Of a DNA stretch of 64,000 bases, positions 1 through 64,000 are shown one piece after another. The notes below the pieces were generated by a model. That model saw only the letters and a program-made list of their open reading frames with translations. It made no database searches and was not told where the DNA came from. Every line of letters starts with the position of its first letter. Within the stretch, counting starts at the first letter, position 1. Both the position numbers and the translations under genes were made by a program. The DNA is from Tridacna crocea. Taxonomy: Eukaryota; Mollusca; Bivalvia; Cardiida; Cardiidae. The stretch is from the NCBI GenBank assembly GCA_943736015.1, contig OX031066.1, positions 10,606,245 to 10,670,244 of the forward strand. The letters run 5' to 3'.

Positions 1-3000
1 CGTAACTCGATTTTTCATGTTTTCGCGGATACAAAACTGGCACCTACGAGACGGTAGTCAACGTAAATGGGTTTGTTGTCACATACGATATAGAGAGATT
101 GGAGAAAAAAAAATCAAAAATTCAGTTCTCTTTGTTTGACTTATGCAACAGGAAGCAGTTGCTACTGAAAAGAGTCTTCATGTCTTTTTTTAGGCACTTG
201 TCACATCATTTTCTGGTGTTCTTGCATGTGCGTAACTGGCACCTATGAAACAGTAGTCAACGTAACTGGGTTTCTTGTTGCGCTTTGTAGATATTAGAAA
301 AATTATGCTGCAATTCCTTCCTACTGAAAGAGTTTTCAGTCTTTTTTTTTAGCCACTTGTCACATTGTTTTCTGTGCTTTTCGCATGTGCATAATTGGCA
401 CATATGAGGTGGTAATCAACGTAACTGGGTTTCTTGTCATGGTTTGAAGCGATTAGAAAAAATAACATTTCAGTACCCTTTGTTTGATTTATGCAATAGG
501 AAACAATTGCTAAATAAAGAGTTTTCAGTCCCTTTTTTAGCAACTTGTCACATTAATTTGTGTGTGTGTGTTTTTTTACAGTTTTTTTTTTTACACTGTA
601 CATTGATCATTTTGGCTTATATGAATTTGATGTGGCCCGAATCAGGAAATCAAATTGAAGGGTAAAGGGGGCATCAAGGGTTTACTTTAAGGGAAGTAAC
701 TCTTGCAAGGGGCATGAAAAGACCAAAACAAGGTCTTCTGCCACCTTGTTTTCTTGATTTTTGGCCCTTTTTCAGTGAAATCTGGCATGTGTGGATGGTG
801 CAAGCCTGGCAGTTTGCCAAGGACTGCACAGCAGCCTTTAAAAAAGACTTTAAATCCACTTTTATGCCGTTTTTTGTTCACTGTTTTTCTATTTATATTA
901 TAATGGCGCCACTTTGTTTGGCTGACTGGGCCCATTTTGATTTCTCAAAGCCTCTCTGACTGGCAGGCCGGGCCCAATTTTGAATTTCTCACAGCCTCTC
1001 TGATTGGCTGTTGGCACCCATTCTGATTTCCTAAAAGCTTCTGTGATTGGATAATTTCACAGAGGGATGAGATTTGATTGAATGATTGGGAGGGGGGTAT
1101 ATGTTTATCCTTATTGACCTCTTACCATACAATGACGCCTTTTAACACCCCTAAAAGAGAAGGCTTTGGAAAATAATCTGAGAAAAGGAGACAATGCAGG
1201 TTACCAGCATTTTCTCCTTTTCTCACAATGTTTTCTACCCTATCAAAGAAAATTTTGATTATTAGTTATTCTTACATCTTATTGTATCTTTATGGCCTAT
1301 TTTCTTAATTCTTCAAAAGAAAACAATATTTTTTTTTTTTTTTATCAGAAAAAGTTTCTGCAACAGCAACCGGTTGCTTCTGAATTTTATTTTTTTATGC
1401 AGCGGTTAAACATGACATTGACTTTTGACTCGCACGGACACCAAAACTGACCCTGGTATGAAAACAGGGAAATGTTTGATTTACCTTTCTTTGATTTGTG
1501 CAACAGGTTTCAGTTGCCTCCGAAAGTGTCTTTACAATTTCATGCGCAGCACGTAACCGTCTCATATGGGTGAGATGGTCATCGCAACCGAATCAATGGC
1601 CCTAGTGAGAAAAAACAAAAAAAGAAAAATCCCTATATTTGACTTGAGAAACAGGTGTTGTCTGCTATGAAATGTCCCGTAAGTCGATTTTTTCATGTTT
1701 TCGCGGATACGTAACTGGCACCAACAAATGGTAGTCAGCGTAAATGGGTTTGTTGTCACGGTATAAAGAGATTGGAGGAAAAAAAAAATAGATATTTAGT
1801 TCCCTATATTTGACTTGGGAAACAGGTGTCGTCTGCTATGAAATGTCCCGTAAGTCGATTTTTCATGTTTTTGCTGATACGTAACTGGCACCTACGAGAC
1901 GGTAGTCAACGTAAATGGGTTTGTTGTCATGTACAATATAGAGAGATTGGAGAAAAAAAAAATAAAAAATTCAGTTCTCTTTGTTTGACTTATGAAACAG
2001 GAAGCAGTTGCTACTGAAAAGAGTCTTCATGTCTTTTTTTTAGCCACTTGTCACATCATTTTCTGGTGTTCTTGCATGTGCGTAATTGGCACGTATGAAA
2101 CAGTAGTCAACGTAACTGGGTTTCTTGTTGCGCTTTGAAGATATTAGAAAAATTATGCTGCAATTCCTTCCTACTGAAAGAGTTTTCAGTCTTTTTTTCA
2201 GCCACTTGTCACATTGTTTTCTGTGCTTTTCGCATGTGCATAATTGGCACGTATGAGGTGGTAATCAACGTAACTGGGTTTCTTGTCATGGTTTGAAGCG
2301 ATTAGAAAAAATAACATTTCAGTTCCCTTTGTTTGATTTATGCAAAAGGAAACAATTGCTATATAAAGAGTTTTCAGTCCCTTTTTTAGCAAGTTGTCAC
2401 ATTAATTTGTTTGTGTGTGTTTTTTTTACAGTTTTTTTTTACACTGTACATTGATCATTTTGGCTTATATGAATTTGATGTGGCCCGAATCAGGAAATCC
2501 AATTGAAGGGTAAAGGGGGCATCACGGGTTTACTTTAAGGGAAGTAACTCTTGCAAGGGGCTTGAAAGGACGAAAACAAGGTCTTCTGCCACCTTGTTTT
2601 CTTGAATTTTGGCCCTTTTTCAGTGAAATCTGGCATGTGTGGATGGTGCAAGCCTGGCAGTTTGCCAAGGACTGCACAGCAGCCTTTAAAAAAGTCTTTA
2701 AATCCACTTTTATGCCGTTTTTTGTTCACTGTTTTTCTATTGATATATTAGGGCGCCATTTTGTTTGGCTAACTGGGCCCATTTTCATTTCTCAAAGCCT
2801 CTCTGACTGGCAGGCCGGGCCCAATTTTTTATTTCTCACAGCCTCTCTGATTGGCTGTTGGCACCCATTCTGATTTCCTAAAAGCTTCTGTGATTGGATA
2901 ATTTCACAGAGGGATGAGATTTGATTGGATGATTGGGAGGGGGGGTATATGTTTATCCTTATTGACCTCTTACCATAAAATGACGCCTTTTAACACCCCT

Positions 3001-3503
3001 AAAAGAGAAGGCTTTGGAAAATAATCTGAGAAAAGGAGACAATGCAGGTTACCAGCATTTTCTCCTTTTCTCACAATGTTTTCTACCCTATCAAAGAAAA
3101 TTTTGATTATTAGTGAATCTTACATCTTATTGTATCTTTATGGCCTATTTTTTTAATTCTTCAAACAAAAACAATATTCTTTTTTTTCATCAGAAAAAGT
3201 TTCTGCAACAGCAACCGGTTGCTTCTGAATTTTTTTGTGCAGCGGTTAAACATGACATTGACTTTTGACTCGCACGGTCACCAAAACTGACCCTGGTATG
3301 AACACAGGGAAATTTTTGATTTACCTTTCTTTGATTTGTGCAACAGGTTTCAGTTGCCTCCAAAAGTGTCTTTACAATTTCATGCGCAGCACGTAACCGT
3401 CTCATATGGGTGAGATGGTCATCGCAACCGAATCAATGGCCCTAGTGAGAAAAAACGAAAAAAGAAAAATCCCTATATTTGACTTGAGAAACAGGTGTTG
3501 TCT

Positions 3504-3845
3504 GCTATGGAATGTCCCTTAAGTCGATTTTTTCATGTTTTTGTGGATACGTAACTGGCACCTACAAACGGTAGTCAGCGTAAATGGGTTTGTTGTCACG
3601 GTATAAAGAGATTGGAGGAAAAAAAATAGAAATTTAGTTCCCTATATTTGACTTGCGAAACAGGTATGTCTGCTATGAAATGTCCCGTAAGTCGATTTTT
3701 TCATGTTTTCGCAGATACGTAACTTGCACCTACAAACGGTAGTCAGCGTAAATGGGTTTGTTGTCATGGTATAAAGAGATTGGAGGAAAAAAAAAATAGA
3801 AATTTAGTTCCCTATATTTGACTTGGGAAACAGGTGTTGTCTGCT
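3504..3845 (+). repeat. Duplicated internal subunit in monomer 3
   Basis: The subunit beginning near AATGTCCCGTAAGTCGA occurs twice in a row here (about 3510-3675 and 3676-3843) before the next, distinguishable subunit starts. Most monomers have one copy. This makes the monomer about 2,007 bp once the transposon is subtracted. It is direct evidence of unequal exchange at the ~165-bp level. Confidence 0.85.
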
Positions 3846-4473
3846 ATGAAATGTCCCGTAAGTCGATTTTTCATGTTTTCGCGGATACGTAACTGGCACC
3901 TACGAGACGGTAGTCAATGTAAATGGGTTTGTTGTCATATACGATATAGAGAGATTGGAGAAAAAAAAAATAAAAAATTCAGTTCTCTTTGTTTGACTGA
4001 TGCAACAGGAAGCAGTTGCTTCTGAAAAGAGTCTTCATGTCTTTTTTTAGGCACTTGTCACATCATTTTCTGGTGTTCTTGCATGTGCGTAACTGGCACC
4101 TATGAAACAGTAGTCAACGTAACTGGGTTTCTTGTTGCGCTTTGAAGATATTAGAAAAATTATGCTGCAATTCCTTCCTACTGAAAGAGTTTTCAGTCTT
4201 TTTTTTAGCCACTTGTCACATTGTTTTCTGTGCTTTTCGCATGTGCATAATTGGCACTTATGAGGTGGTAATCAACGTAACTGGGTTTCTTGTCATGGTT
4301 TGAAGCGATTAGAAAAAAATAACATTTCAGTTCCCTTTGTTTGATTTATGCAATAGGAAACAATTGCTAAATAAAGAGTTTTCAGTCCCTTTTTTAGCAA
4401 CTTGTCACATTAATTTGTGTGTGTGTGTTTTTTTACAGTTTTTTTTTACACTGTACATTGATCATTTTGGCTT

Positions 4474-4477
4474 ATAT
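4474..4477. repeat. Target-site duplication ATAT, left
   Basis: Uninterrupted monomers read GGCTTATATGAATTTG at this point. Here the sequence reads GGCTTATAT followed by the element end, and the right side resumes ATATGAATTTG. One ATAT is therefore duplicated. Because the element ends are palindromic with the flank, a TA duplication with a one-base-longer terminal repeat explains the data equally well. Confidence 0.85.
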
Positions 4478-4506
4478 CGAGGGGTTAGTGCAAGAACGTG
4501 CTATCT
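4478..4506 (+). repeat. Left terminal inverted repeat
   Basis: Begins CGAGGGGTTAGTGCAAGAAC and pairs with 8630-8658 read on the other strand, 27 of 29 positions matching. The internal GCAAGAA and CTATCT words recur in the subterminal palindromes. Confidence 0.9.
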
Positions 4507-4797
4507 TCACATTTTGAGATTTTTCAGGAGAAGCGTTTTTCTGCCTCAATTCTAAAATAAAACATACACATGATCCAAACTTGGACAGTTTATTTATGTT
4601 AGTTTACTTGATAATGCTAAATATACTCCACAGTCAAATAAACATTAGTACGGCTTGAAATTGATAAAACTTATATAGCCATTAAAAATTGCCAAATTGA
4701 GCACAAAGTCTGTTATGCCAAAACAGTCTATCATGAAATAGCTGGTTTCAACACTCATAATTTTGATGTTTGGTTGATATTAATTTGTGCAAGAATG

Positions 4798-4950
4798 GGC
4801 TATAACTAGATAGCCAGCAGGAACCTAATGAAAAATTTGTGCCAAAACATGCTATCTTTTGATAGCACTTTTTGGCAGCAACAAATGTGGTTAAAGCTGG
4901 AATAATTCTGAATGCCAGAACAATCCATCGAAAGATGGCTGGTTATGGCA
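4798..4950. repeat. Left subterminal palindrome cluster
   Basis: Three palindromes stand in a row. GGCTAT/ATAGCC lies at 4798-4815. A 38-nt hairpin at 4840-4877 opens TGCCAAAACATGCTATC and closes GATAGCACTTTTTGGCA. A related one at 4913-4950 has CCATC-GAAA-GATGG at its centre and outer TGCCA/TGGCA. The second is nearly the same as the right-end palindrome at 8372-8409, so these are shared end signals and not chance hairpins. A likely role is transposase binding, by analogy with other DNA transposons. Confidence 0.75.
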
Positions 4951-4982
4951 GAAGCAATTTTTGTTGTAAGTTTATAAAAACT

Positions 4983-5213
4983 ACTCACCATTAAAGGCTA
5001 ATCCTTTCATAGCTCTTTCTTGCACAAAAATCATGTGTGTAAAAACATTTTGGAAAAAGGAGAAACTGCTTGCAATGGACAGTTTCTCCTTTTCTCAACA
5101 AGTATTCTATTATCCCAGTAAACTCTCTTTCATTTTTATCATGTTTAAAACTATTATCTTCAAACTGGTTTGAATAAGAGAGAGTCCACTTTGTCATCTG
5201 CTAATGTGTTACA
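4983..5213 (-). mobile_element. Diverged MITE-like element with central hairpin
   Basis: The centre at 5055-5093 has perfect 14-bp arms (AAAAGGAGAAACTG and its complement). The right edge, CTAATGTGTTACAA, resembles the end of the better preserved element at 6635-6863. The left edge is only weakly recognisable. Orientation is opposite to the 6635 copy and the same as the satellite's copy. Boundaries are approximate. Confidence 0.45.
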
Positions 5214-5308
5214 ATAACTGTCATTGTGATTTGGATAATTGTATTACACTTAACTTGTATTGTTCTATATTACTGTTGGTTCTGTTCTAATTTTAAAACA
5301 TTTTTACT

Positions 5309-5650
5309 TTATTTATTCTTCTGACTCATCACCAGAATCTTCCAGCGCATCTTGCTCTGGCAAACAGTCTTTGGTGTTGTTAACTTGAAGGCAGGCTTTT
5401 TTAAAAAAAACTTGTGATACTCAGGAGGAATATCGCCACTTTTGCAAAGATTCAGAAGGTCTTTTTTCTTTGCTGATAGAATTGGCTGATTTTTCTGGTA
5501 TTTGAATGACACATTGTCATCAGGGGTGTGTTGTTTCTTTGATACGGCTATTTTAACTTTTTGGAACTCGGCATACATTGCATACTTAAAATAGCATGCA
5601 TCAAGCTCTGACTTCAAGTATTGCACCCATTTCATTTGATTTAAAAACAT
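5309..5650 (-). pseudogene. Coding-like fragment, possible transposase C-terminal exon (113 aa)
   Basis: A 113-residue open frame on the minus strand, the longest in the 4.18-kb element that does not simply run through a hairpin. It is lysine-rich, with the segment LSAKKKDLLNLCKSGDIPPE followed by YHKFF. This has the look of a conserved helical C-terminal module and not random sequence. The upstream DNA on that strand carries an acceptor-like stretch (ATTATCTTCAG) just before the first ATG, so it may be one exon of a split gene together with the 5761-5922 fragment. I do not recognise the family with certainty. I recall similar K..DLL.LC..G.IP.EYH.F wording in uncharacterised invertebrate proteins near transposons, but that is memory only. 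No catalytic residues can be assigned. Confidence 0.4.
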
Positions 5651-5760
5651 CTTTTTGAGGAAGAGAAATCTGAAGATAATACGACCCTTCTTTTTGTCAT
5701 TACATGTATGTGAAACACAGGTATTTGTGATTTGTCCAGAAATACCATTTTTATTGACTT

Positions 5761-5922
5761 CTAGTGTTGTCTCATTGATGGGTTACACTGTTCAATATAA
5801 GTAGAATTTTTACTCTTGTCCCTTCTACTGTCATCGTTTTCAGATTTTTCATTCAAGTTATCCTTTAAAATTAAAACCCTAACTTCTTCCTCCAACCATT
5901 TGCTTTGGAAATCACTTTCCAT
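5761..5922 (-). pseudogene. Small acidic coding-like fragment (53 aa)
   Basis: A 53-codon frame on the minus strand starting MESDFQSKWLEEEVRVLILK and ending at TAG. It is rich in Glu, Asp, Ser and Lys. A pyrimidine-rich tract ending in CTGTAG directly precedes the ATG and looks like a splice acceptor. It lies about 110 bp upstream, in coding direction, of the 113-aa fragment at 5309-5650, and a GT dinucleotide in a donor-like AATGGTAT context follows. The two could be exons of one decayed gene carried by the transposon. Function unknown. Confidence 0.3.
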
Positions 5923-6095
5923 CTACAGATTTAAAAAGAATAACAGAAGGTGCATTTTAAGAGCTTCTATTTGTCAATACCACACAATCTGAATTACATG
6001 TACGGAATATTATGATTACAATTTGTCTTAAATGTAGTTGAATAACAGTTTATTGGTACTGAAAATGAGAAGAAAGAAGGAAAGCTTCAAACACT

Positions 6096-6243
6096 TTAAA
6101 CCTTTATCTGATAAAGGCAACTATTGGCAGGTATGCAATGGACCTCATATGAAAACATTGTGGAAAAAAAGAAAATTCTCATTAGGAGCAATTTCTCCTT
6201 TTTCCACTTTTGCTGTCCACCAGATATGTCATTTTCTTTCTTT
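6096..6243 (-). mobile_element. Partial MITE-like element with hairpin
   Basis: Starts near TTTAAACCTTTATC, similar to the TTAACCCATTATC end of the 6635-6863 element. It contains a hairpin at 6160-6207 with GTGGAAAAA/TTTTTCCAC at its base. The other end is not recognisable and seems cut off by the element beginning at 6244. Confidence 0.4.
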
Positions 6244-6610
6244 AGGTAAGACCTGTGTAATACACTTCCGGTGAAAATTCTAATTGGTTGATAACTAAGG
6301 ATTGATAAGGATTTATGCAGAAATAATATTTTTGCACATTTCTAACCGATCAGAAATTCCGTTTATGTCTATCTTGAAATTATTTTTTGATACTTTTGTT
6401 TGTTTTCTGAAAAGGGAGGTAATTATTATCTCTTTTTGAATTGAGAATATAGTGGTTTTAAATTTATAAATGATTATTCAAAGAAGGAAAAAATGAAAAG
6501 GTTAAAGTGTTATATATTATATTATAAATTATATACTCATTTTTAATTATAGCTGAGTTTAAAGGATATTTTAGTAGAAAAACCTGTTTTCCATTACTCA
6601 GGTCTTACCT
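6244..6610. mobile_element. Candidate 367-bp inverted-repeat element
   Basis: AGGTAAGACCTGTGTAAT at 6244 pairs with ATTACTCAGGTCTTACCT ending at 6610, 17 of 18 positions complementary. The interior is AT-rich and noncoding, with a GGGAGGTAATT motif near 6414. I see no clear target duplication, so the ends are defined only by the inverted repeat. Confidence 0.5.
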
Positions 6611-6634
6611 TGAGAACTTTTGAATTTGAGCAGC

Positions 6635-6863
6635 TTAACCCATTACCACACGAGAAAATTTTGGACTGGTCCAAATTAAAAGCATTTGCAGACGACAAAA
6701 TAAAGGCGACTGAAAAATAGAATTTTTTTCTGGGAAGGGTAGAAAACACCGTTGGAAAAGGAGAAAATGCTGGTTACCAGCATTTTCTCCTTTTCCAAAA
6801 GTGTTTTCAAAAGGTTTCTTTCTAAGGGGCGTCAAAAGTAGGGATTGAGTGATAATGGGTTAA
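6635..6863 (+). mobile_element. TTAA-flanked MITE (piggyBac-like) with perfect central palindrome
   Basis: TTAA at 6635-6638 is followed by CCCATTACCAC. The other end reads GTGATAATGGG followed by TTAA at 6860-6863. The 221-bp body thus has short inverted termini beginning CCC and TTAA flanks, as piggyBac-type elements do. The centre is a perfect palindrome, 6752-6798, with 23-nt arms around one base. GAAAACAC/GTGTTTTC pairs extend it to 6742-6808. There is no coding capacity. It is the best preserved of a small family in this window (about 4983, 6096, 7295 and 7675) and is related to the hairpin part of every satellite monomer. Confidence 0.7.
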
Positions 6864-7294
6864 GATATTGTATCAGGAAAAACATATGTATAATAGAAGA
6901 ACACTGTTAGCAAAAATACGAATCCAAGTTTCATCACAAAACTACATAACCAAGACCCTTTTGATGCGCCAGTTCCACTTTACTCTCAATACAATTGTAT
7001 AACGGGAAAAAAATAATTCTCTGTAAAATGCAATTTCTTTCTCCAGAATATTTCAACTAGATCTACATTAGAAAATTATATTTAAATTTCCTTCAAGCAT
7101 TCAGATGCTTTATATATTTGTTATGATAAAAAGTTCTAAACAAAAATGTCTTCATGTATAGCCTATGTAATTTATCCATAAAGCATCAAATGGACGAAAA
7201 CAACTTTTCCAGTAAATGAAAAATACAAGAAAGTACAATTTAGAATTATTGAAAAAAAAAAAACCCTGAAGTATTTCATTTCAAGGCTGGTTCA
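6864..7294. other. AT-rich spacer, nothing recognised
   Basis: This is AT-rich noncoding sequence inside the 4.18-kb element. I found no long open frame, RNA gene or clear repeat in it. Confidence 0.6.
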
Positions 7295-7497
7295 ATTTTA
7301 CCTGACGACAAAATTTTAGGCTGATTTAAATTAAAAGCTTAATTTATGCAGATGCAAATCATGGGCAATTCTATTGAGAAAATTAATTTTGTTCCTCTTA
7401 GAGTGGGAAACATTGTGGGAAAATAAGAAAATGCTGGTAAGTAGCCATTTTCCCATTTTCTTTCTATTTTCCTAAAGGCCATTTCTATCAGGGTTGC
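7295..7497 (+). mobile_element. Decayed copy of the TTAA-type MITE
   Basis: AAATTTTAGGCTGATTTAAA and the following ATTAAAAGC match the left part of the 6635 element (AAATTTTGGACTGGTCCAAA, ATTAAAAGC). The middle still holds GAAAATGCTGGTAAG opposite a degenerate CCATTTTCCCATTTTC arm. The termini are eroded (ATTTTACC and TATCAGGGTTG), so the coordinates are approximate. Confidence 0.5.
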
Positions 7498-7562
7498 TAT
7501 AAATCGAAACTTCGTAGTAAAGCTTTAGGTAGAATATCTCAACATAGCAGGCAATAGAGAAC

Positions 7563-7599
7563 CAAGATCAGACTGCATGCTTCATGTGGTCTGATCTTG
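7563..7599. repeat. Perfect 11-bp inverted repeat with 15-nt loop
   Basis: CAAGATCAGAC at 7563-7573 pairs with GTCTGATCTTG at 7589-7599. It is unrelated to the GGAGAAAATGC hairpin family. The surrounding words (AGACTGCATG, GGTCTGATC) faintly resemble dispersed repeats I recall from bivalve genomes, but I cannot confirm that here. Confidence 0.5.
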
Positions 7600-7674
7600 A
7601 TCTATACTATCAGCTTAAAATCTAAAATTGTGCCCTAGGATTCATATCATAATGAAATTACTTTGTGAAACTCG

Positions 7675-7887
7675 TTTACACTTTACCAAACATCACCACT
7701 TTTTACAGGTCAAAATGGAAAACATTTGCAAACGAAAGCATAAAGGTCTAAAATCTGAAATTTGTCCCTGAAAATAGTGTGGGGAGAGGGGAAATTGCCA
7801 GTTAAAGCTATTTTCTCCTTTTCCCACATTGTTTTCAAAAGCTCAAGCAGGGTCTTGAAAAGCAGGGATTGTGTGGTAAAGAGTTAA
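7675..7887 (+). mobile_element. Diverged copy of the TTAA-type MITE
   Basis: The left end TTTACACTTTACCA and right end TGGTAAAGAGTTAA are inverted copies of each other. The interior matches the 6635 element in order: CATTTGCA, AAAGG, a hairpin at 7779-7827 (GTGGGG...TTCCCAC), TGTTTTCAAAAG, then GGGATTGTGTGGTAA. One flank is TTAA, the other a mutated TTTA. Confidence 0.6.
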
Positions 7888-8233
7888 TGGTAGTATTACT
7901 TTTTAGGGGAAAGAGAAAATGTACACAACTTATTGTTGTTCAGTGAGGTAGATGTCTTGATAAAACAGACTTATTCCATTGAAATGAAATACAAATTAGT
8001 GGAAGAAAACTTAACCATTCCTCTTGCAGGGAAATTTCATAGCTCGTTATAAACACATAATTAGGCTAATGTCATGCTGATTTTGTCCGTGCAAAACCAG
8101 GCTTTGTTTCAATAGCCCATTATTGATACTGTAATCACACATTAAGATACCGTGGGGGCGTCTGCAAAATGCAGCTATGTTGACATAACCTCATCTTGTA
8201 GAAAGCAAGTATTCCATTGTATCAAATTGAAAG
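7888..8233. other. Noncoding spacer in the transposon
   Basis: No gene, hairpin family member or long frame is visible. This is AT-rich sequence leading into the right subterminal palindrome cluster. Confidence 0.6.
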
Positions 8234-8409
8234 AGGCTATCTTTACATAGCCTATTTTAGCACACTTTTTTTTCCCTTCAAATTTCTGATTTAGATTGTG
8301 CAAGAAACAGCTATTTCACGTTAGCTGCTTCTTGCATTATAAAGATCCCAAAGATGTTGGTATTTTGTTCCTGCCATAACATGCTATCTTTTGATAGAAT
8401 GTTTTGGCA
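8234..8409. repeat. Right subterminal palindrome cluster
   Basis: AGGCTAT/ATAGCCT lies at 8234-8253. A hairpin with GCAAGAAACAGCTA and its one-mismatch complement lies at 8300-8335. A 38-nt palindrome, TGCCATAACATGCTATC... to ...GATAGAATGTTTTGGCA, lies at 8372-8409. The last is the counterpart of 4840-4877 at the left end. GCAAGAA and GCTATC are also words of the terminal repeat itself, so terminal and subterminal repeats appear to share a binding motif. Confidence 0.75.
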
Positions 8410-8629
8410 TGATTTCAACCTGTATGACCTGAAAAATATAGCAGTTATCTTTAGATAGCTCATTCTTGCTGAAATGTCCAGTTGCTTTATACTCAACTTC
8501 AAAGATAGCTGGTTGGGTTTCTGTGGTATATCTTGGAAAAGAAGCTACATATTGATACGGGGATAAGGAGGAAATGTGAGAAATGGAAAGCTGCATCATA
8601 TTTTGTAAAAAAAAAAAGGCAATTTTAGT

Positions 8630-8658
8630 AGATACCATGTTCTTGCACTAACCCCTCG
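8630..8658 (-). repeat. Right terminal inverted repeat
   Basis: Reverse complement of the left terminus, ending CTAACCCCTCG at 8658, and followed directly by the second ATAT and the resumed satellite monomer. Confidence 0.9.
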
Positions 8659-11600
8659 ATATGAATTTGATGTGGCCCGAATCAGGAAATCCAATTGAAG
8701 GGTAAAGGGGGCATCAAGGGTTTACTTTAAGGGAAGTAACTCTTGCAAGGGGCTTTAAAGGACCAAAACAAGGTCTTCTGCCACCTTGTTTTCTTGAATT
8801 TTGGCCCTTTTTCAGTGAAATCTGGCATGTGTGGATGGTGCATGCCTGGCAGTTTGCCAAGGACTGCACAGCAGCCTTTAAAAAAGACTTTAAATCCACT
8901 TTTATGCCGTTTTTTGTTCACTGTTTTTCTATTGATATATTAGGGCGCCACTTTGTTTGGCTGACTGGGCCCATTTTCATTTCTCAAAGCCTCTCTGACT
9001 GGCAGGCCGGGCCCAATTTTTTATTTCTCACAGCCTCTCTGATTGGCTGTTGGCACCCATTCTGATTTCCTAAAAGCTTCTGTGATTGGATAATTTCACA
9101 GAGGGATGAGATTTGATTGGATGATTGGGAGGGGGGATATATGTTTATCCTTATTGACCTCTTACCATAAAATGACGCCTTTTAACACCCCTAAAAGAGA
9201 AGGCTTTGGAAAATAATCTGAGAAAAGGAGACAATGCAGGTTACCAGCATTTTCTCCTTTTCTCACAATGTTTTCTACCCTATCAAAGAAAATTTTGATT
9301 ATTAGTTATTCTTACATCTTATTGTATCTTTATGGCCTATTTTTTTTAATTCTTCAAACGAAAACAATATTTTTTTTTTTATCAGAAAAAGTTTCTGCAA
9401 CAGCAACCGGTTGCTTCTGAATTTTATTTTTTTGTGCAGCGGTTAAACATGACATTGACTTTTGACTCGCACGGTCACCAAAACTGACCCAGGTATGAAA
9501 ACAGGGAAATGTTTGATTTACCTTTCTTTGATTTGTGCAACAGGTTTCAGTTGCCTCCGAAAGTGTCTTTACAATTTCATGCGCAGCACGTAACCGTCTC
9601 ATATGGGTGAGATGGTCATCGCAAGTGAATCAATGGCCCTAGTAAGAAAAAACCAAAAAAGAAAAATCCCTATATTTGACTTGAGAAACAGTTGTTGTCT
9701 GCTATGAACTGTCCCGTAAGTCGATTTTTTCATGTTTTCGCGGATACGTAACTGGCACCTACAAATGGTAGTCAGCGTAAATGGGTTTGTTGTCACGGTA
9801 TAAAGAGATTGGAGGAAAAAAAATAGAAATTTAGTTCCCTATATTTGACTTGGGAAACAGGTGTCGTCTGCTATGAAATGTCCCGTAACTCGATTTTTCA
9901 TGTTTTCGCGGATACAAAACTGGCACCTACGAGACGGTAGTCAACGTAAATGGGTTTGTTGTCACATACGATATAGAGAGATTGGAGAAAAAAAAATCAA
10001 AAATTCAGTTCTCTTTGTTTGACTTATGCAACAGGAAGCAGTTGCTACTGAAAAGAGTCTTCATGTCTTTTTTTAGGCACTTGTCACATCATTTTCTGGT
10101 GTTCTTGCATGTGCGTAACTGGCACCTATGAAACAGTAGTCAACGTAACTGGGTTTCTTGTTGCGCTTTGAAGATATTAGAAAAATTATGCTGCAATTCC
10201 TTCCTACTGAAAGAGTTTTCAGTCTTTTTTTTAGCCACTTGTCACATTGTTTTCTGTGCTTTTCGCATGTGCATAATTGGCACGTATGAGGTAGTAATCA
10301 ACGTAACTGGTTTTCTTGTCATGGTTTCAAGCGATTAGAAAAAATAACATTTCAGTTCCCTTTGTTTGATTTATGCAATAGGAAACACATGCTAAATAAA
10401 GAGTTTTCAGTCCCTTTTTTAGCAACTTGTCACATTAATTTGTGTGTGTGTGTTTTTTTTACAGTTTTTTTTTACACTGTACATTGATCATTTTGGCTTA
10501 TGTGAATTTGATGTGGCCCGAATCAGGAAATCCAATTGAAGGGTAAAGGGGGCATCAAGGGTTTACTTTAAGGGAAGTAACTCTTGCAAGGGGCTTGAAA
10601 GGACCAAAACAAGGTCTTCTGCCACCTTGTTTTCTTGAATTTTGGCCCTTTTTCAGTGAAATCTGGCATGTGTGGCTGGTGCAAGCCTGGCAGTTTGCCA
10701 AGGACTGCACAGCAGCCTTTAAAAATGTCTTTAAATCCACTTTTATGCCGTTTTTTGTTCACTGTTTTTCTATTGATATATTAGGGCGCCATTTTGTTTG
10801 GCTGACTGGGCCCATTTTGATTTCTCAAAGCCTCTCTGACTGGCAGGCCGGGCCCAATTTTTTATTTCTCACAGCCTCTCTGATTGGCTGTTGGCACCCA
10901 TTCTGATTTCCTAAAAGCTTCTGTGATTGGATAATTTCACAGAGGGATGAGATTTGATTGGATGATTGGGAGGGGGGGTATATATTTATCCTTATTGACC
11001 CCTTACCATACAATGACGCCTTTTAACACCCCTAAAAGAGAAGACTTTGGAAAATAATCTGAGAAAAGGAGACAATGCAGGTTACCAGCATTTTCTCCTA
11101 TTCCCACAATGTTTTCTACCCTATCAAAGAAAATTTTGATTATAAGTTATTCTTACATCTTATTGTATCTTTATGGCCTATTTTTTTAATTCTTCAAACA
11201 AAAACAATATTCTTTTTTTTCATCAGAAAAAGTTTCTGCAACAGCAACCGGTTGCTTCTGAATTTTTTTGTGCAGGGGTTAAACATGACATTGACTTTTG
11301 ACTCGCACGGTCACCAAAACTGACCCTGGTATGAACACAGGGAAATGTTTGATTTACCTTTCTTTGATTTGTGCAACAGGTTTCAGTTGCCTCCGAAAGT
11401 GTCTTTACAATTTCATGCGCAGCACGTAACCGTCTCATATGGGTGAGATGGTCATCGCAACCGAATCAATGGCCCTAGTGAGAAAAAACGAAAAAAGAAA
11501 AATCCCTATATTTGACTTGAGAATCAGGTGTTGTCTGCTATGAAATGTCCCGTAAGTCGATTTTTTCATGTTTTCGCGGATACGTAACTGGCACCTACAA

Positions 11601-13374: not shown

Positions 13375-13720
13375 GCTATGAAATGTCCCGTAAGTCGATT
13401 TTTTCATGTTTTCGCGGATACGTAACTGGCACCTACAAATAGTAGTCAGCGTAAATGGGTTTGTTGTCGCGGTATAAAGAGATTGGAGGAAAAAAAAATA
13501 GAAATTTAGTTCCCTATATTTGACTTGGGAAACAGGTGTCGTTCTGCTATGAAATGTCCCGTAAGTCGATTTTTTCATGTTTTTGTGGATACGTAACTGG
13601 CACCTAAAAACGGTAGTCAGCGTAAATGGGTTTGTTGTCACGGTATAAAGAGATTGGAGGAAAAAAAATAGAAATTTAGTTCCCTATATTTGACTTGGGA
13701 AACAGGTGTCGTCTGCTATG
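13375..13720 (+). repeat. Duplicated internal subunit in the 2,009-bp monomer
   Basis: The AATGTCCCGTAAGTCGA subunit is present twice in tandem (about 13380-13548 and 13553-13717) before the next subunit type. The two copies differ from each other, for example in CCTACAAATAGTAG versus CCTAAAAACGGTAG. The duplication therefore either is not brand new or was brought in by exchange with another monomer. Confidence 0.85.
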
Positions 13721-22226: not shown

Positions 22227-22241
22227 TTAACACCCCTAAAA
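22227..22241. repeat. LINE target-site duplication, 3'-side copy
   Basis: TTAACACCCCTAAAA is part of the normal monomer sequence and is repeated exactly at 28544-28558. A perfect 15-bp duplication is typical of target-primed reverse transcription and shows a single, fairly young insertion. Confidence 0.97.
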
Positions 22242-22862: not shown

Positions 22863-22928
22863 TTAAAACTGGTAAAGATTGGAGCCTCCAATGGGATCAA
22901 ATACTCCCATTAAAGAGGTCCTGTCTCC
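22720..22928 (-). repeat. LINE 3'-end tandem duplication, ORF-proximal copy
   Basis: Covers the last ~20 codons of ORF2, its stop codon and about 140 bp of 3' UTR. It is separated from the distal copy by about 15 bp. Because it includes coding sequence, the unit boundary lies inside ORF2. Confidence 0.9.
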
Positions 22929-24782: not shown

Positions 24783-24936
24783 ACGTTCTAGGGTCTTGCA
24801 GAGACAACTAGTAAGAGCTATTGGCCGATAGTTAGCCGGGTCACTAGCATCTTTGCCAGGTTTTGGGATAGGAATGACAAGTGCCTCCCGCCAGTATGCA
24901 GGAAAATCACCTGACTGCCAGATATCATTAAAAATA

Positions 24937-26403: not shown

Positions 26404-26418
26404 TTTAAAATAGACTGG

Positions 26419-36483: not shown

Positions 36484-36557
36484 TCCTTATTGACCCCTTA
36501 CCATACAATGACGCCTTTTAACACCCCTAAAAGAGAAGACTTTGGAAAATAATCTAA

Positions 36558-42855: not shown

Positions 42856-42880
42856 GAATTCAGTTCTAGAATTCAGTTCT
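42856..42880 (+). repeat. Private short duplication GAATTCAGTTCTA x2
   Basis: GAATTCAGTTCTA is followed at once by GAATTCAGTTCTC. It is found only here and at 48379-48403 within the array, giving both monomers an extra ~12 bp (1,848 and 1,849 bp). Confidence 0.95.
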
Positions 42881-48378: not shown

Positions 48379-48403
48379 GAATTCAGTTCTAGAATTCAGT
48401 TCT
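48379..48403 (+). repeat. Second instance of the private duplication, three monomers downstream
   Basis: Same duplication as at 42856, exactly 5,523 bp away, which equals three monomers. The linked variant CTACTATGAAATGTCCCTTA also occurs in both monomers, 305 bp upstream in each. Confidence 0.95.
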
Positions 48404-53599: not shown

Positions 53600-53640
53600 T
53601 ATGAAATGTCCCGTAAGTCGATACGTAACTGGCACCTACG
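53600..53640 (+). repeat. Monomer with 21-bp internal deletion
   Basis: All neighbours read GTCGATTTTTTCATG...GCGGATACGTAAC. Here it is GTCGATACGTAAC. The loss runs between two GAT words, as expected of slippage, and explains the short 1,818-bp period between landmarks 52644 and 54462. Confidence 0.9.
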
Positions 53641-56600
53641 AGACAGTAGTCAGCGTAAATGGATTTGTTGTCATGGTATAAAGAGATTGGAGGAAAAAAA
53701 AATAGAAAATTTGTTCCCTATATTTGACTTAAGAAACAGGTGTCGTCTGCTATGAAATGTCCCGTAAGTCGATTTTTCATGTTTTTGCGGATACGTAACT
53801 GGCACCTACGAGAAAGTAGTCAACGTAAATGGGTTTGTTGTCACGTACGATATAAAGAGATTGGAGAAAAAAAAATAATAAAGAATTCAGTTCTCTTTTT
53901 TTGACTTATGCAACAGGAAGCAGTTGCTACTGAAAAGAGTCTTCATGTCTTTTTTTAGCCACTTATCACATCATTTTCTGGTGTTCTCGCATGTGCGTAA
54001 CTGGCACGTATGAAACAGTAGTCAACGTAACTGGGTTTCTTGTTGCGGTTTGAAGATATCAGAAAAATTATGCTTCAGTTCCTTGCTACTGAAAGAGTTT
54101 TCAGTCTTTTTTTAGCCACTTGTCACATTGTTTTCTGTGCTTTTTGCATGTGCGTAACTGGCACGTATGAGATGGTAATCAACGTAACTGGGTTTCTTGT
54201 CGTGGTTTAAAGCGATTAGAAAAAATAACATTTCAGTTCCCTTTGTTTGATTTATGCAATAGGAAACAATTGCTACAGAAAGAGTTTTCAGTCTCTTTTT
54301 TTAGCAACTTCTCACAATTAATTTCTGTGTGTTTTTTTCACACTGTACATTGATCATTTTGGCTTATATGAATTTGATGTGGCCCAAATCAGGAAATCCA
54401 ATTAAAGGGTAAAGGGGGGAATCAAGGGTTTACTTTAAGGGAAGTAACTCTTGCAAGGGGCTTGAAAAGACCAAAACAAGGTCTTCTGCCACCTTGTTTT
54501 TTTTTAATTTTGGCCCTTTTTCAGTGAAATCTGGCATGTGTGGATGGTGCATGCCTGGCAGTTTGCCAAGGACTGCACAGCAGCCTTTAAAAAAGACTTT
54601 AAATCCACTTTTATGCCGTTTTTTGTTCACTGTTTTCTATCGATTTATATTAGGGCGCCATTTTGTTTGGCTGACTGGGCCCATTTTGATTTCTCAAAGC
54701 CTCTCTGACTGGCAGACCGGGCCCATTTTTGAATTTCTCACAGCCTCTCTGATTGGCTGTTGGCACCCATTCTGATTTCCTAAAAGCTTCTGTGATTGGA
54801 TAATCTCACAGAGGGATGAGATTTGATTGGATGATTGGGAGGGGGGGTATATATTTATCCTTATTGACCCCTTACCATACAATGACGCCTTTTAACACCC
54901 CTAAAAGAGAAGACTTTGGAAAATAATCTGAGAAAAGGAGACAATGCAGGTTACCAGCATTTTCTCCTTTTCCCACAATGTTTTCTACCCTATCAAAGAA
55001 AATTTTGATTATTAGTTATTCTTACATCTTATTGTATCTTTATGGCCTATTTTATTTTTTTAATTCTTCAAACGAAAACAAGATTTTTTTTCATCTGAAA
55101 AAGTTTCTGCAACAGCAACCGCTTGCTTCTGAATTTTATTTTTTGGTGCAGCGGTTAAACATAACATTGACTTTTGACTCGCACGGTCACCAAAACTGAC
55201 CCTGGTATGAAAACAGGGAAATGTTTCATTTACCTTTCTTGGATTTGTGCAACAGGTATCAATTGCCTCCAAAATTGTCTAAGTTGATTTTACGATTTCA
55301 TGCGCAGCACGTAACCGTCTCATATGGGTGAGATGGTCATCGCAACCGAATCATTGGCCCTAGTGAGAAAAAATGAAAAAAGAAAAATCCCCATATTTGA
55401 CTTGAGAAACAGGTGTCGTCTGCTATGAAATGTCCCGTAAGTCGATTTTTTCATGTTTTTCGCGGATACGTAACTGGCACCTACGAGACAGTAGTCAGCG
55501 TAAATGGATTTGTTGTCATGGTATAAAGAGATTGGAGGAAAAAAAAAAATAGAAAATTTGTTCCCTATATTTGACTTAAGAAACAGGTGTCGTCTGCTAT
55601 GAAATGTCCCGTAAGTCGATTTTTCATGTTTTTGCGGATACGTAACTGGCACCTACGAGAAAGTAGTCAACGTAAATGGGTTTGTTGTCACGTACGATAT
55701 AAAGAGATTGGAGAAAAAAAATAATAAAGAATTCAGTTCTCTTTTTTTGACTTATGCAACAGGAAGCAGTTGCTACTGAAAAGAGTCTTCATGTCTTTTT
55801 TTAGCCACTTATCACATCATTTTCTGGTGTTCTCGCATGTGCGTAACTGGCACGTATGAAACAGTAGTCAACGTAACTGGGTTTCTTGTTGCGGTTTGAA
55901 GATATCAGAAAAATTATGCTTCAGTTCCTTGCTACTGAAAGAGTTTTCAGTCTTTTTTTAGCCACTTGTCACATTGTTTTCTGTGCTTTTTGCATGTGCG
56001 TAACTGGCACGTATGAGATGGTAATCAACGTAACTGGGTTTCTTGTCGTGGTTTAAAGCGATTAGAAAAAATAGCATTTCAGTTCCCTTTGTTTGATTTA
56101 TGCAATAGGAAACAATTGCTACAGAAAGAGTTTTCAGTCTCTTTTTTTAGCAACTTCTCACAATTAATTTCTGTTTGTGTTTTTTTCACACTGTACATTG
56201 ATCATTTTGGCTTATATGAATTTGATGTGGCCCAAATCAGGAAATCCAATTAAAGGGTAAAGGGGGGAATCAAGGGTTTACTTTAAGGGAAGTAACTCTT
56301 GCAAGGGGCTTGAAAAGACCAAAACAAGGTCTTCTGCCACCTTGTTTTCTTTAATTTTGGCCCTTTTTCAGTGAAATCTGGCATGTGTGGATGGTGCATG
56401 CCTGGCAGTTTGCCAAGGACTGCACAGCAGCCTTTAAAAAAGACTTTAAATCCACTTTTATGCCGTTTTTTGTTCACTGTTTTCTATCGATTTATATTAG
56501 GGCGCCATTTTGTTTGGCTGACTGGGCCCATTTTGATTTCTCAAAGCCTCTCTGACTGGCAGACCGGGCCCATTTTTGAATTTCTCACAGCCTCTCTGAT

Positions 56601-59600
56601 TGGCTGTTGGCACCCATTCTGATTTCCTAAAAGCTTCTGTGATTGGATAATTTCACAGAGGGATGAGATTTGATTGGATGATTGGGAGGGGGGGTATATA
56701 TTTATCCTTATTGACCCCTTACCATACAATGACGCCTTTTAACACCCCTAAAAGAGAAGACTTTGGAAAATAATCTGAAAAAAGGAGACAATGCAGGTTA
56801 CCAGCATTTTCTCCTTTTCCCACAATGTTTTCTACCCTATCAAAGAAAATTTTGATTATTAGTTATTCTTACATCTTATTGTATCTTTATGGCCTATTTT
56901 TTTAATTCTTCAAACGAAAACAAGATTTTTTTTCATCTGAAAAAGTTTCTGCAACAGCAACCGCTTGCTTCTGAATTTTATTTTTTGGTGCAGCGGTTAA
57001 ACATAACATTGACTTTTGACTCACACGGTCACCAAAACTGACCCTGGTATGAAAACAGGGAAATGTTTCATTTACCTTTCTTGGATTTGTGCAACAGGTA
57101 TCAATTGCCTCCAAAAGTGTCTAAGTTGATTTTACGATTTCATGCGCAGCACGTAACCGTCTCATATGGGTGAGATGGTCATCGCAACCGAATCATTGGC
57201 CCTAGTGAGAAAAAATTAAAAAAAGAAAAATCCCCATATTTGACTTGAGAAACAGGTGTCGTCTGCTATGAAATGTCCCGTAAGTCGATTTTTTCATGTT
57301 TTCGCGGATACGTAACTGGCACCTACGAGACAGTAGTCAGCGTAAATGGATTTGTTGTCATGGTATAAAGAGATTGGAGGAAAAAAAAATAGAAAATTTG
57401 TTCCCTATATTTGACTTAAGAAACAGGTGTCGTCTGCTATGAAATGTCCCGTAAGTCGATTTTTCATGTTTTTGCGGATACGTAACTGGCACCTACGAGA
57501 AAGTAGTCAACGTAAATGGGTTTGTTGTCACGTACGATATAAAGAGATTGGAGAAAAAAAATAATAAAGAATTCAGTTCTCTTTTTTTGACTTATGCAAC
57601 AGGAAGCAGTTTCTACTGAAAAGAGTCTTCATGTCTTTTTTTAGCCACTTATCACATCATTTTCTGGTGTTCTCGCATGTGCGTAACTGGCACGTATGAA
57701 ACAGTAGTCAACGTAACTGGGTTTCTTGTTGCGGTTTGAAGATATCAGAAAAATTATGCTTCAGTTCCTTGCTACTGAAAGAGTTTTCAGTCTTTTTTTA
57801 GCCACTTGTCACATTGTTTTCTGTGCTTTTTGCATGTGCGTAACTGGCACGTATGAGATGGTAATCAACGTAACTGGGTTTCTTGTCGTGGTTTAAAGCG
57901 ATTAGAAAAAATAGCATTTCAGTTCCCTTTGTTTGATTTATGCAATAGGAAACAATTGCTACAGAAAGAGTTTTCAGTCTCTTTTTTTAGCAACTTCTCA
58001 CAATTAATTTCTGTGTGTTTTTTTCACACTGTACATTGATCATTTTGGCTTATATGAATTTGATGTGGCCCAAATCAGGAAATCCAATTAAAGGGTAAAG
58101 GGGGGAATCAAGGGTTTACTTTAAGGGAAGTAACTCTTGCAAGGGGCTTGAAAAGACCAAAACAAGGTCTTCTGCCACCTTGTTTTCTTTAATTTTGGCC
58201 CTTTTTCAGTGAAATCTGGCATGTGTGGATGGTGCATGCCTGGCAGTTTGCCAAGGACTGCACAGCAGCCTTTAAAAAAGACTTTAAATCCACTTTTATG
58301 CCGTTTTTTGTTCACTGTTTTCTATCGATTTATATTAGGGCGCCATTTTGTTTGGCTGACTGGGCCCATTTTGATTTCTCAAAGCCTCTCTGACTGGCAG
58401 ACCGGGCCCATTTTTGAATTTCTCACAGCCTCTCTGATTGGCTGTTGGCACCCATTCTGATTTCCTAAAAGCTTCTGTGATTGGATAATCTCACAGAGGG
58501 ATGAGATTTGATTGGATGATTGGGAGGGGGGGTATATATTTATCCTTATTGACCCCTTACCATACAATGACGCCTTTTAACACCCCTAAAAGAGAAGACT
58601 TTGGAAAATAATCTGAGAAAAGGAGACAATGCAGGTTACCAGCATTTTCTCCTTTTCCCACAATGTTTTCTACCCTATCAAAAAAAATTTTGATTATTAG
58701 TTATTCTTACATCTTATTGTATCTTTATGGCCTATTTTTTTAATTCTTCAAACGAAAACAAGATCTTTTTTTCATCTGAAAAAGTTTCTGCAACAGCAAC
58801 CGCTTGCTTCTGAATTTTATTTTTTGGTGCAGCGGTTAAACATAACATTGACTTTTGACTCGCACGGTCACCAAAACTGACCCTGGTATGAAAACAGGGA
58901 AATGTTTCATTTACCTTTCTTGGATTTGTGCAACAGGTATCAATTGCCTCCAAAAGTGTCTAAGTTGATTTTACGATTTCATGCGCAGCACGTAACCTTC
59001 TCATATGGGTGAGATGGTCATCGCAACCGAATCATTGGCCCTAGTGAGAAAAAATGAAAAAAGAAAAATCCCCATATTTGACTTGAGAAACAGGTGTCGT
59101 CTGCTATGAAATGTCCCGTAAGTCGATTTTTTCATGTTTTCGCGGATACGTAACTGGCACCTACGAGACAGTAGTCAGCGTAAATGGATTTGTTGTCATG
59201 GTATAAAGAGATTGGAGGAAAAAAAAATAGAAAATTTGTTCCCTATATTTGACTTAAGAAACAGGTGTCGTCTGCTATGAAATGTCCCGTAAGTCGATTT
59301 TTCATGTTTTTGCGGATACGTAACAGGCACCTACGAGAAAGTAGTCAACGTAAATGGGTTTGTTGTCACGTACGATATAAAGAGATTGGAGAAAAAAAAT
59401 AATAAAGAATTCAGTTCTCTTTTTTTGACTTATGCAACAGGAAGCAGTTGCTACTGAAAAGAGTCTTCATGTCTTTTTTTAGCCACTTATCACATCATTT
59501 TCTGGTGTTCTCGCATGTGCGTAACTGGCACGTATGAAACAGTAGTCAACGTAACTGGGTTTCTTGTTGCGGTTTGAAGATATCAGAAAAATTATGCTTC

Positions 59601-62600
59601 AGTTCCTTGCTACTGAAAGAGTTTTCAGTCTTTTTTTAGCCACTTGTCACATTGTTTTCTGTGCTTTTTGCATGTGCGTAACTGGCACGTATGAGATGGT
59701 AATCAATGTAACTGGGTTTCTTGTCGTGGTTTAAAGCGATTAGAAAAAATAGCATTTCAGTTCCCTTTGTTTGATTTATGCAATAGGAAACAATTGCTAC
59801 AGAAAGAGTTTTCAGTCTCTTTTTTTAGCAACTTCTCACAATTAATTTCTGTGTGTTTTTTTCACACTGTACATTGATCATTTTGGCTTATATGAATTTG
59901 ATGTGGCCCAAATCAGGAAATCCAATTAAAGGGTAAAGGGGGGAATCAAGGGTTTACTTTAAGGGAAGTAACTCTTGCAAGGGGCTTGAAAAGACCAAAA
60001 CAAGGTCTTCTGCCACCTTGTTTTCTTTAATTTTGGCCCTTTTTCAGTGAAATCTGGCATGTGTGGATGGTGCATGCCTGGCAGTTTGCCAAGGACTGCA
60101 CAGCAGCCTTTAAAAAAGACTTTAAATCCACTTTTATGCCGTTTTTTGTTCACTGTTTTCTATCGATTTATATTAGGGCGCCATTTTGTTTGGCTGACTG
60201 GGCCCATTTTGATTTCTCAAAGCCTCTCTGACTGGCAGACCGGGCCCATTTTTGAATTTCTCACAGCCTCTCTGATTGGCTGTTGGCACCCATTCTGATT
60301 TCCTAAAAGCTTCTGTGATTGGATAATCTCACAGAGGGATGAGATTTGATTGGATGATTGGGAGGGGGGTATATATTTATCCTTATTGACCCCTTACCAT
60401 ACAATGACGCCTTTTAACACCCCTAAAAGAGAAGACTTTGGAAAATAATCTGAGAAAAGGAGACAATGCAGGTTACCAGCATTTTCTCCTTTTCCCACAA
60501 TGTTTTCTACCCTATCAAAGAAAATTTTGATTATTAGTTATTCTTACATCTTATTGTATCTTTATGGCCTATTTTTTTAAATTCTTCAAACGAAAACAAG
60601 ATTTTTTTTCATCTGAAAAAGTTTCTGCAACAGCAACCGCTTGCTTCTGAATTTTATTTTTTGGTGCAGCCGTTAAACATAACATTGACTTTTGACTCGC
60701 ACGGTCACCAAAACTGACCCTGGTATGAAAACAGGGAAATGTTTCATTTACCTTTCTTGGATTTGTGCAACAGGTATCAATTGCCTCCAAAAGTGTCTAA
60801 GTTGATTTTACGATTTCATGCGCAGCACGTAACCTTCTCATATGGGTGAGATGGTCATCGCAACCGAATCATTGGCCCTAGTGAGAAAAAATGAAAAAAG
60901 AAAAATCCCCATATTTGACTTGAGAAACAGGTGTCGTCTGCTATGAAATGTCCCGTAAGTCGATTTTTTCATGTTTTCGCGGATACGTAACTGGCACCTA
61001 CGAGACAGTAGTCAGCGTAAATGGATTTGTTGTCATGGTATAAAGAGATTGGAGGAAAAAAAAATAGAAAATTTGTTCCCTATATTTGACTTAAGAAACA
61101 GGTGTCGTCTGCTATGAAATGTCCCGTAAGTCGATTTTTCATGTTTTTGCGGATACGTAACTGGCACCTACGAGAAAGTACTCAATGTAAATGGGTTTGT
61201 TGTCACGTACGATATAAAGAGATTGGAGAAAAAAAATAATAAAGAATTCAGTTCTCTTTTTTTGACTTATGCAACAGGAAGCAGTTGCTACTGAAAAGAG
61301 TCTTCATGTCTTTTTTTAGCCACTTATCACATCATTTTCTGGTGTTCTCGCATGTGCGTAACTGGCACGTATGAAACAGTAGTCAACGTAACTGGGTTTC
61401 TTGTTGCGGTTTGAAGATATCAGAAAAATTATGCTTCAGTTCCTTGCTACTGAAAGAGTTTTCAGTCTTTTTTTAGCCACTTGTCACATTGTTTTCTGTG
61501 CTTTTTGCATGTGCGTAACTGGCACGTATGAGATGGTAATCAACGTAACTGGGTTTCTTGTCGTGGTTTAAAGCGATTAGAAAAAATAGCATTTCAGTTC
61601 CCTTTGTTTGATTTATGCAATAGGAAACAATTGCTACAGAAAGAGTTTTCAGTCTCTTTTTTTAGCAACTTCTCACAATTAATTTCTGTGTGTTTTTTTC
61701 ACACTGTACATTGATCATTTTGGCTTATATGAATTTGATGTGGCCCAAATCAGGAAATCCAATTAAAGGGTAAAGGGGGGAATCAAGGGTTTACTTTAAG
61801 GGAAGTAACTCTTGCAAGGGGCTTGAAAAGACCAAAACAAGGTCTTCTGCCACCTTGTTTTCTTGAATTTTGGCCCTTTTTCAGTGAAATCTGGCATGTG
61901 TGGATGGTGCATGCCTGGCAGTTTGCCAAGGACTGCACAGCAGCCTTTAAAAAAGACTTTAAATCCACTTTTATGCCGTTTTTTGTTCACTGTTTTCTAT
62001 CGATTTATATTAGGGCGCCATTTTGTTTGGCTGACTGGGCCCATTTTGATTTCTCAAAGCCTCTCTGACTGGCAGACCGGGCCCATTTTTGAATTTCTCA
62101 CAGCCTCTCTGATTGGCTGTTGGCACCCATTCTGATTTCCTAAAAGCTTCTGTGATTGGATAATCTCACAGAGGGATGAGATTTGATTGGATGATTGGGA
62201 GGGGGGTATATATTTATCCTTATTGACCCCTTACCATACAATGACGCCTTTTAACACCCCTAAAAGAGAAGACTTTGGAAAATAATCTGAGAAAAGGAGA
62301 CAATGCAGGTTACCAGCATTTTCTCCTTTTCCCACAATGTTTTCTACCCTATCAAAGAAAATTTTGATTATTAGTTATTCTTACATCTTATTGTATCTTT
62401 ATGGCCTATTTTTTTAAATTCTTCAAACGAAAACAAGATTTTTTTTCATCTGAAAAAGTTTCTGCAACAGCAACCGCTTGCTTCTGAATTTTATTTTTTG
62501 GTGCAGCGGTTAAACATAACATTGACTTTTGACTCGCACGGTCACCAAAACTGACCCTGGTATGAAATCAGGGAAATGTTTCATTTACCTTTCTTGGATT

Positions 62601-64000
62601 TGTGCAACAGGTATCAATTGCCTCCAAAAGTGTCTAAGTTGATTTTACAATTTCATGCGCAGCACGTAACCGTCTCATATGGGTGAGATGGTCATCGCAA
62701 CCGAATCATTGGCCCTAGTGAGAAAAAATGAAAAAAGAAAAATCCCCATATTTGACTTGAGAAACAGGTGTCGTCTGCTATGAAATGTCCCGTAAGTCGA
62801 TTTTTTCATGTTTTCGCGGATACGTAACTGGCACCTACGAGACAGTAGTCAGCGTAAATGGATTTGTTGTCATGGTATAAAGAGATTGGAGGAAAAAAAA
62901 ATAGAAAATTTGTTCCCTATATTTGACTTAAGAAACAGGTGTCGTCTGCTATGAAATGTCCCGTAAGTCGATTTTTCATGTTTTTGCGGATACGTAACTG
63001 GCACCTACGAGAAAGTAGTCAACGTAAATGGGTTTGTTGTCACGTACGATATACAGAGATTGGAGAAAAAAAATAATAAAGAATTCAGTTCTCTTTTTTT
63101 GACTTATGCAACAGGAAGCAGTTGCTACTGAAAAGAGTCTTCATGTCTTTTTTTAGCCACTTATCACATCATTTTCTGGTGTTCTCGCATGTGCGTAACT
63201 GGCACGTATGAAACAGTAGTCAACGTAACTGGGTTTCTTGTTGCGGTTTGAAGATATCAGAAAAATTATGCTTCAGTTCCTTGCTACTGAAAGAGTTTTC
63301 AGTCTTTTTTTAGCCACTTGTCACATTGTTTTCTGTGCTTTTTGCATGTGCGTAACTGGCACGTATGAGATGGTAATCAACGTAACTGGGTTTCTTGTCG
63401 TGGTTTAAAGCGATTAGAAAAAATAGCATTTCAGTTCCCTTTGTTTGATTTATGCAATAGGAAACAATTGCTACAGAAAGAGTTTTCAGTCTCTTTTTTT
63501 AGCAACTTCTCACAATTAATTTCTGTGTGTTTTTTTCACACTGTACATTGATCATTTTGGCTTATATGAATTTGATGTGGCCCAAATCAGGAAATCCAAT
63601 TAAAGGGTAAAGGGGGAATCAAGGGTTTACTTTAAGGGAAGTAACTCTTGCAAGGGGCTTGAAAAGACCAAAACAAGGTCTTCTGCCACCTTGTTTTCGT
63701 TACTTTTGGCCCTTTTTCAGTGAAATCTGGCATGTGTGGATGGTGCATGCCTGGCAGTTTGCCAAGGACTGCACAGCAGCCTTTAAAAAAGACTTTAAAT
63801 CCACTTTTATGCCGTTTTTTGTTCACTGTTTTCTATCGATTTATATTAGGGCGCCATTTTGTTTGGCTGACTGGGCCCATTTTGATTTCTCAAAGCCTCT
63901 CTGACTGGCAGACCGGGCCCATTTTTGAATTTCTCACAGCCTCTCTGATTGGCTGTTGGCACCCATTCTGATTTCCTAAAAGCTTCTGTGATTGGATAAT

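Follow-up and report, generated by a model that had tools for sequence, protein, structure and literature searches.

A layered kilobase-unit satellite array with two inserted transposons

The window (the whole stretch of DNA analysed, 64,000 nucleotides) is filled by a 1,837-bp satellite arranged head to tail in one orientation, except for two inserted transposons. It is very probably a eukaryotic satellite of the complex, kilobase-unit type that has evolved by ordinary unequal exchange on mobile-element debris. The LINE among the inserts and the CpG decay described below indicate a eukaryotic host, and we would guess at a mollusc. We suggest the following course of events. A mosaic unit would have come first and then multiplied in head-to-tail tandem. 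Misaligned copies would have undergone unequal exchange and gene conversion, by which the units spread and became alike, most recently those of the right block.

Extent of the array and its inserts

We counted the units with three anchors placed in different parts of the unit and found 28, 29, and 28 copies. For the second anchor, 24 of 28 spacings measured 1,819-1,850 bp, and the four remaining ones (6192, 2009, 8162, and 2458) correspond to the inserts, an extra subunit, or a chimeric unit. A consensus of the right block, built from units U16-U27, covered 53,509 of the 64,000 bases on the + strand (E 1e-20), and the only runs of more than 10 bases without unit coverage were 4478-8658 and 22242-28543. 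There were 11 minus-strand matches of the consensus at E 1e-10, the longest of 139 bp; among the matches listed (8 of 11), all were the palindrome of the unit matching itself or a relative within insert 1. The window does not contain any N. All unit counts below refer to the 27 full units between anchors and exclude the partial units at the edges.

1..64000, + strand: macrosatellite array of ~29 units of ~1837 bp, continuing past both window edges (anchor counts and consensus coverage)
44088..45925, + strand: U18, a representative right-block unit (unit comparison)

An earlier note had described a macrosatellite with three nested tandem scales, in which a 1.84-kb outer unit recurs about 30 times with no array end in view. 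The anchors, the coverage, a self-comparison of the consensus, and TRF agree with this description: there are ~29 copies of 1,837 bp, and the array exits the window on both sides. The same note had let the repeat span positions 1..64000, which is right for the satellite. It made no mention of the two age blocks or the mobile-element-like stretch described below, and overlooked the two transposons:

4478..8658, no strand assigned: insert 1, a 4181-bp DNA-transposon-like element with 29-bp terminal inverted repeats (93%) and ATAT flanks
22242..28543, - strand: insert 2, a LINE-type retrotransposon of 6.3 kb with a 13-15-bp target duplication, (TT)AACACCCCTAAAA
26419..27654, - strand: first ORF of the LINE, 411 aa, with a weak CCHC zinc knuckle (E 0.02, below the Pfam cut-off)
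24937..26403, - strand: endonuclease ORF of the LINE (Exo_endo_phos_2, E 7.3e-26)
22863..24782, - strand: reverse transcriptase and RNase H ORF of the LINE (E 3.4e-29 and E 2.7e-11)

Insert 1 has the terminal inverted repeats and the target duplication of a TIR DNA transposon, its ATAT flank being either a 4-bp or a TA duplication, which are not separable. Its two ORFs of at least 80 aa (113 and 84 aa) have no Pfam match; hence, we do not name a superfamily. No transposase is recognisable in them, which is compatible with a non-autonomous element, since such an element would also lack one. Further palindromes of different sequence lie near the ends of insert 1 (e.g., 4840-4885 and 8364-8409). 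Insert 2 combines an endonuclease, a reverse transcriptase, and a target-site duplication, as a LINE does, and in this copy the endonuclease and the reverse transcriptase are encoded in two different ORFs. Near the 3' end of the LINE, at 22496-22928, TRF reports a direct duplication of 225 bp (1.9 copies, 93% matches) that extends to the end of the reverse-transcriptase frame.

Many near-identical copies, here up to 99.9%, might also arise as an assembly artefact in which one unit was wrongly repeated. We give this reading a negligible probability: the copies carry private changes and two unique inserts, and nothing longer than 1,070 bp, which falls short of one unit, recurs exactly and without gaps at lags of 1.8-30 kb, a finding that argues against duplication of the contig. 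We also rejected a plasmid or prokaryotic origin, U18 having no plasmid match at E 1e-3 and one pattern having no exact match to a genome contig.

Identity, exchange, and decay among units

The 27 full units are 93.7-99.9% identical to one another and can be divided as follows, with U01-U11 taken as left and U16-U27 as right for the block identity ranges. Inserts were excised from U02 and U09 before units were compared, which left one base too many and three too few at the joints.

1360..32437, + strand: old left block, full units U01-U11, with the inserts within its span (95.8-97.6% mutual identity)
32438..34892, + strand: chimeric unit U12, 2455 bp (unit identity and consensus alignment)
34893..40403, + strand: transition units U13-U15 (96.8-98.3% to each other and to U16-U27)
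40404..62463, + strand: young right block, full units U16-U27 (99.0-99.9% mutual identity)

Identity within either block exceeds that between left and right (94.2-95.5% for U01-U11 versus U16-U27), the pattern of concerted homogenisation. Both inserts lie in the old block, as the proposed ages would predict, although two events prove nothing. The chimeric unit is left-type up to ~33700 and right-type from ~33709. At the joint the register jumps by ~600 bp, and a short CCCTTTTTC is repeated. Because this jump falls at non-corresponding positions, the joint may have formed by end joining rather than by homologous exchange.

Exchange between units is consistent with the four-gamete conflicts, which affect 112 of 378 site pairs in U13-U27 (the units on which the site counts of the four-gamete and rate analyses are based) and 486 of 1326 in U01-U11; recurrent mutation would be a partial alternative. 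The number of ~165-bp subunits per unit also varies: a subunit profile found six in 24 of the 27 full units, nine in the chimeric U12, and seven in U02 and U05, and we count the difference between seven and six in favour of a satellite evolving by unequal exchange. A higher-order repeat of several units was considered and not seen, identity falling smoothly over lags 1-9. Two units at lag 3, U17 and U20, have linked variants in common. The same 13-bp tandem duplication (AGAATTCAGTTCT) is present in U17 (42855-42880) and, three units apart, in U20 (48378-48403).

We then compared changes along the unit. Transitions in U01-U11 hit 49 of 946 CpG cells versus 71 of 6,805 cells at other C and G (odds ratio 5.2, P 1e-15), a decay that germline methylation would predict. 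We suggest that the array is methylated, silent chromatin, and propose no host function beyond the general role of silent satellite arrays. With CpG sites, homopolymer runs, and sites near gaps excluded, a single-copy part of ~330 bp changed more slowly than the rest of the unit, both in the left block (24 of 3168 changed versus 1.5%, P 1e-4) and in U13-U27 (10 of 4356 versus 0.55%, P 1e-3); these P values are uncorrected for the eight regions compared, and the scan-wide permutation P is 0.068. For this last reason we do not claim selection, and constraint on the single-copy part is only suggestive. The part lies at 45159-45490 in U18 (consensus 1071-1402, approximate) and changes at about half the rate of the rest in both blocks. 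The subunit array, in turn, was somewhat faster than the rest in the left block (P 4e-4).

Subunits and mobile-element-like content of the unit

Within the unit, two tandem arrays and a palindrome-bearing stretch can be placed on U18, and the last of these has its best relative inside insert 1:

44210..45159, + strand: six subunits S2-S7 in U18 (profile matches, unit positions 123-1072)
45488..45619, + strand: ~44-bp subunits in U18, about three copies (TRF and alignment)
45686..45824, + strand: mobile-element-like stretch in U18 (consensus 1598-1736, edges approximate), homologous to insert 1
45741..45807, + strand: 67-bp palindrome in U18, 33-nt arms, 82% complementary (RNA fold -27.7 kcal/mol, z -4.62)
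6643..6863, - strand: best relative of the palindrome-bearing repeat, located in insert 1; its 16-bp inverted ends (94%) lie at 6634-6649 and 6849-6864

All full units carry one and the same subunit array and share their single-copy stretches, the palindromic one among them. Self-comparison of the consensus gave off-diagonal matches at the ~165-bp scale down to E 1e-100; in 50 Markov shuffles there were 0.06 such matches on average and at most 1. The six related subunits are mostly 145-190 bp long, S7 being truncated; a seventh candidate, S1, is doubtful, its 5.8 bits equalling the best of 100 shuffles (5.8 bits). Mutual identity among S2-S7 is 49.4-89.8%. S3 and S4 are 89.8% alike, S5 and S6 83.3%, and S2 is 53.2-61.6% identical to S3-S7. 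Because the two pairs are alike within and only 63.0-67.7% identical between them, layering seems to extend to the inner array. The ~44-bp array has few copies (2.0-3.1 in TRF, which lists this period only from 34457 on). At this scale the right consensus has three alignable units and a possible remnant, and the repeat is absent from its self-comparison at E 1e-3.

Hence, the two internal arrays of the earlier note are both present, that of ~140-190-bp subunits by self-comparison against shuffles and by profile, and that of ~44 bp as a short run of about three units. Outer copies had also been described as far more alike than the subunits inside them, which agrees with our figures (93.7-99.9% versus 49.4-89.8%). 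Since the subunits are 49-90% alike and the units 93.7-99.9%, the outer amplification is the younger, and this hierarchy supports the proposal of at least two rounds. Exchange may extend to sister subunits: 22 of 36 per-unit changes match the nearest subunit (without a fitted null) and, with each allele counted once, 15 of 25 do, against 11.1 expected (P 0.077). We regard conversion from subunit to subunit as suggestive only.

The mobile-element-like stretch (consensus 1598-1736) is 77.7% identical to the minus strand of insert 1 over 139 bp (E 2.9e-26). Four further places in insert 1 match the palindrome with more or less flank (five in all). The inverted ends of the best relative include TTAA, and TTAA-type elements are often piggyBac-like. 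Folding is much more stable for the palindrome of this relative (-48.1 kcal/mol) than for the one in the unit (-27.7 kcal/mol), and the fold of a third copy is hardly better than shuffles (z -1.95). Over six copies, 78.7% of hairpin positions pair, versus 48-59% in slid versions. Structural selection on the hairpin was rejected, as covariation over these copies is not significant (151 of 500 shuffles reach the covariation score), and for pairs changed on both sides 59 of 500 shuffles reach the observed value. A viral-contig match to the hairpin pattern was dropped; it aligns with the unit and the inserts over at most 29 bases. From these similarities we infer that a miniature transposon of the insert-1 repeat family entered the unit before amplification and brought in the palindromic stretch. 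No opposite end of such an element can be made out in the unit.

Alternatively, the whole unit could be a mobile element that became tandem, namely a non-autonomous Helentron (HINE). The HINE plan described in PMC7492417 has short inverted ends and, between a microsatellite and a palindrome, a central array of 140-180-bp repeats. The unit has such a central array in its ~165-bp subunits, a GT-rich run just after the array (recognised by reading; longer in left units and short in the right consensus), and a palindrome, and on the minus strand the order of microsatellite, array, and palindrome fits this plan. However, every copy in the window is tandem, so HINE ends, an empty TT site free of target duplication, and any fixed 3' end next to the palindrome are invisible; the palindrome is, besides, 67 bp long and part of a stretch common to an inverted-repeat DNA transposon, insert 1. 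We consider a HINE origin unlikely and favour a satellite grown on mobile-element debris.

The satellite unit appears to be non-coding. Only one unit ORF of at least 120 aa occurs in the window (122 aa), and a protein-coding unit was rejected after none of five unit ORFs reached a curated Pfam cut-off; their best match was OSBS_N (E 0.00033, 20.8 bits versus a cut-off of 27). No Rfam match at gathering scores and no tRNA (ARAGORN, bacterial settings) was found in the window. A promoter-like stretch in U18 at 45574-45678 (consensus 1486-1590, approximate) has four inverted CCAAT boxes, a G run, and a TATA-like run. One might read the unit as a transcribed regulatory or small-RNA locus, with the inverted CCAAT boxes and the TATA-like run driving a transcript that begins with the hairpin. 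Four ATTGG/CCAAT sites do fall within 120 bp (P 0.02, 2000 Markov shuffles; 8 in all, 5.5 expected), a TATATATTTA run recognised by reading lies downstream of them, followed by the hairpin (-27.7 kcal/mol, z -4.62), and the hairpin has sub-threshold Rfam matches to miRNA families, the best being mir-31 (22.9 bits versus a cut-off of 51, E 0.042). Such a locus is nevertheless very unlikely. The promoter-like stretch is unconserved, having changed faster than the rest of the unit in U13-U27 (15 of 1671 cells, P 0.011) and no more slowly than the rest in the left block (13 of 1232 cells, P 0.19); the hairpin, though its pairing beats slid versions, does not covary significantly over six copies; and the window is without an Rfam match at gathering scores. 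Even more speculative, and highly improbable in our judgement, is that the unit carries a promoter and hairpin derived from a mobile element and that the array makes small RNAs silencing the same mobile-element family. If so, the silenced family would have relatives inside a transposon inserted into the array.

Comparison with known satellites

Kilobase tandem units are known from the human macrosatellites DXZ4 and D4Z4. Unlike these, the unit described here was not found to contain a gene or a known regulatory element. Literature searches by unit letters, lengths, and topics, within open-access scope, returned no description of this satellite, and we do not claim that it is undescribed.

The earlier note considered the length of the unit unusual for a satellite. 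This holds only against the common monomers of 135-375 bp and fails given published kilobase monomers: 17 of 26 putative satellite families of Vicia faba have monomers of 687-2033 bp (PMC5895790), and crayfish satellite units reach 4898 bp (PMC13130569). The present array resembles the long-monomer satellites of Vicia faba in its tandem kilobase monomers (PMC5895790). It differs from all but VfSat8, the only long monomer with subrepeats in the dot plots of that source, in having internal subrepeats; this comparison is by description. Length alone is thus unremarkable, and subrepeats inside long monomers are the less usual part of the array.

Also comparable are the bivalve Cg_HINE Helentrons and Cg170/BIV160 (PMC7492417, PMC5139131), which have ~140-180-bp repeats beside a microsatellite and a palindrome. 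Cg170/BIV160 are likewise satellites tied to mobile elements; compared by description, the ~165-bp repeat is their tandem unit, whereas here it is a 1.84-kb mosaic (PMC7492417, PMC5139131). The growth of satellites from tandem repeats inside mobile elements is reviewed in PMC12628747 and treated for bivalves in PMC7492417 and PMC5139131, and the array fits this known picture. Apart from its clear layering, it is an ordinary array into which two transposons landed. While it overturns nothing, it preserves older and younger parts of one satellite in a single contiguous stretch, together with the joining unit and a monomer whose mobile-element-like ancestry is still visible. It can therefore serve to test ideas on how complex satellite units arise and become homogenised.
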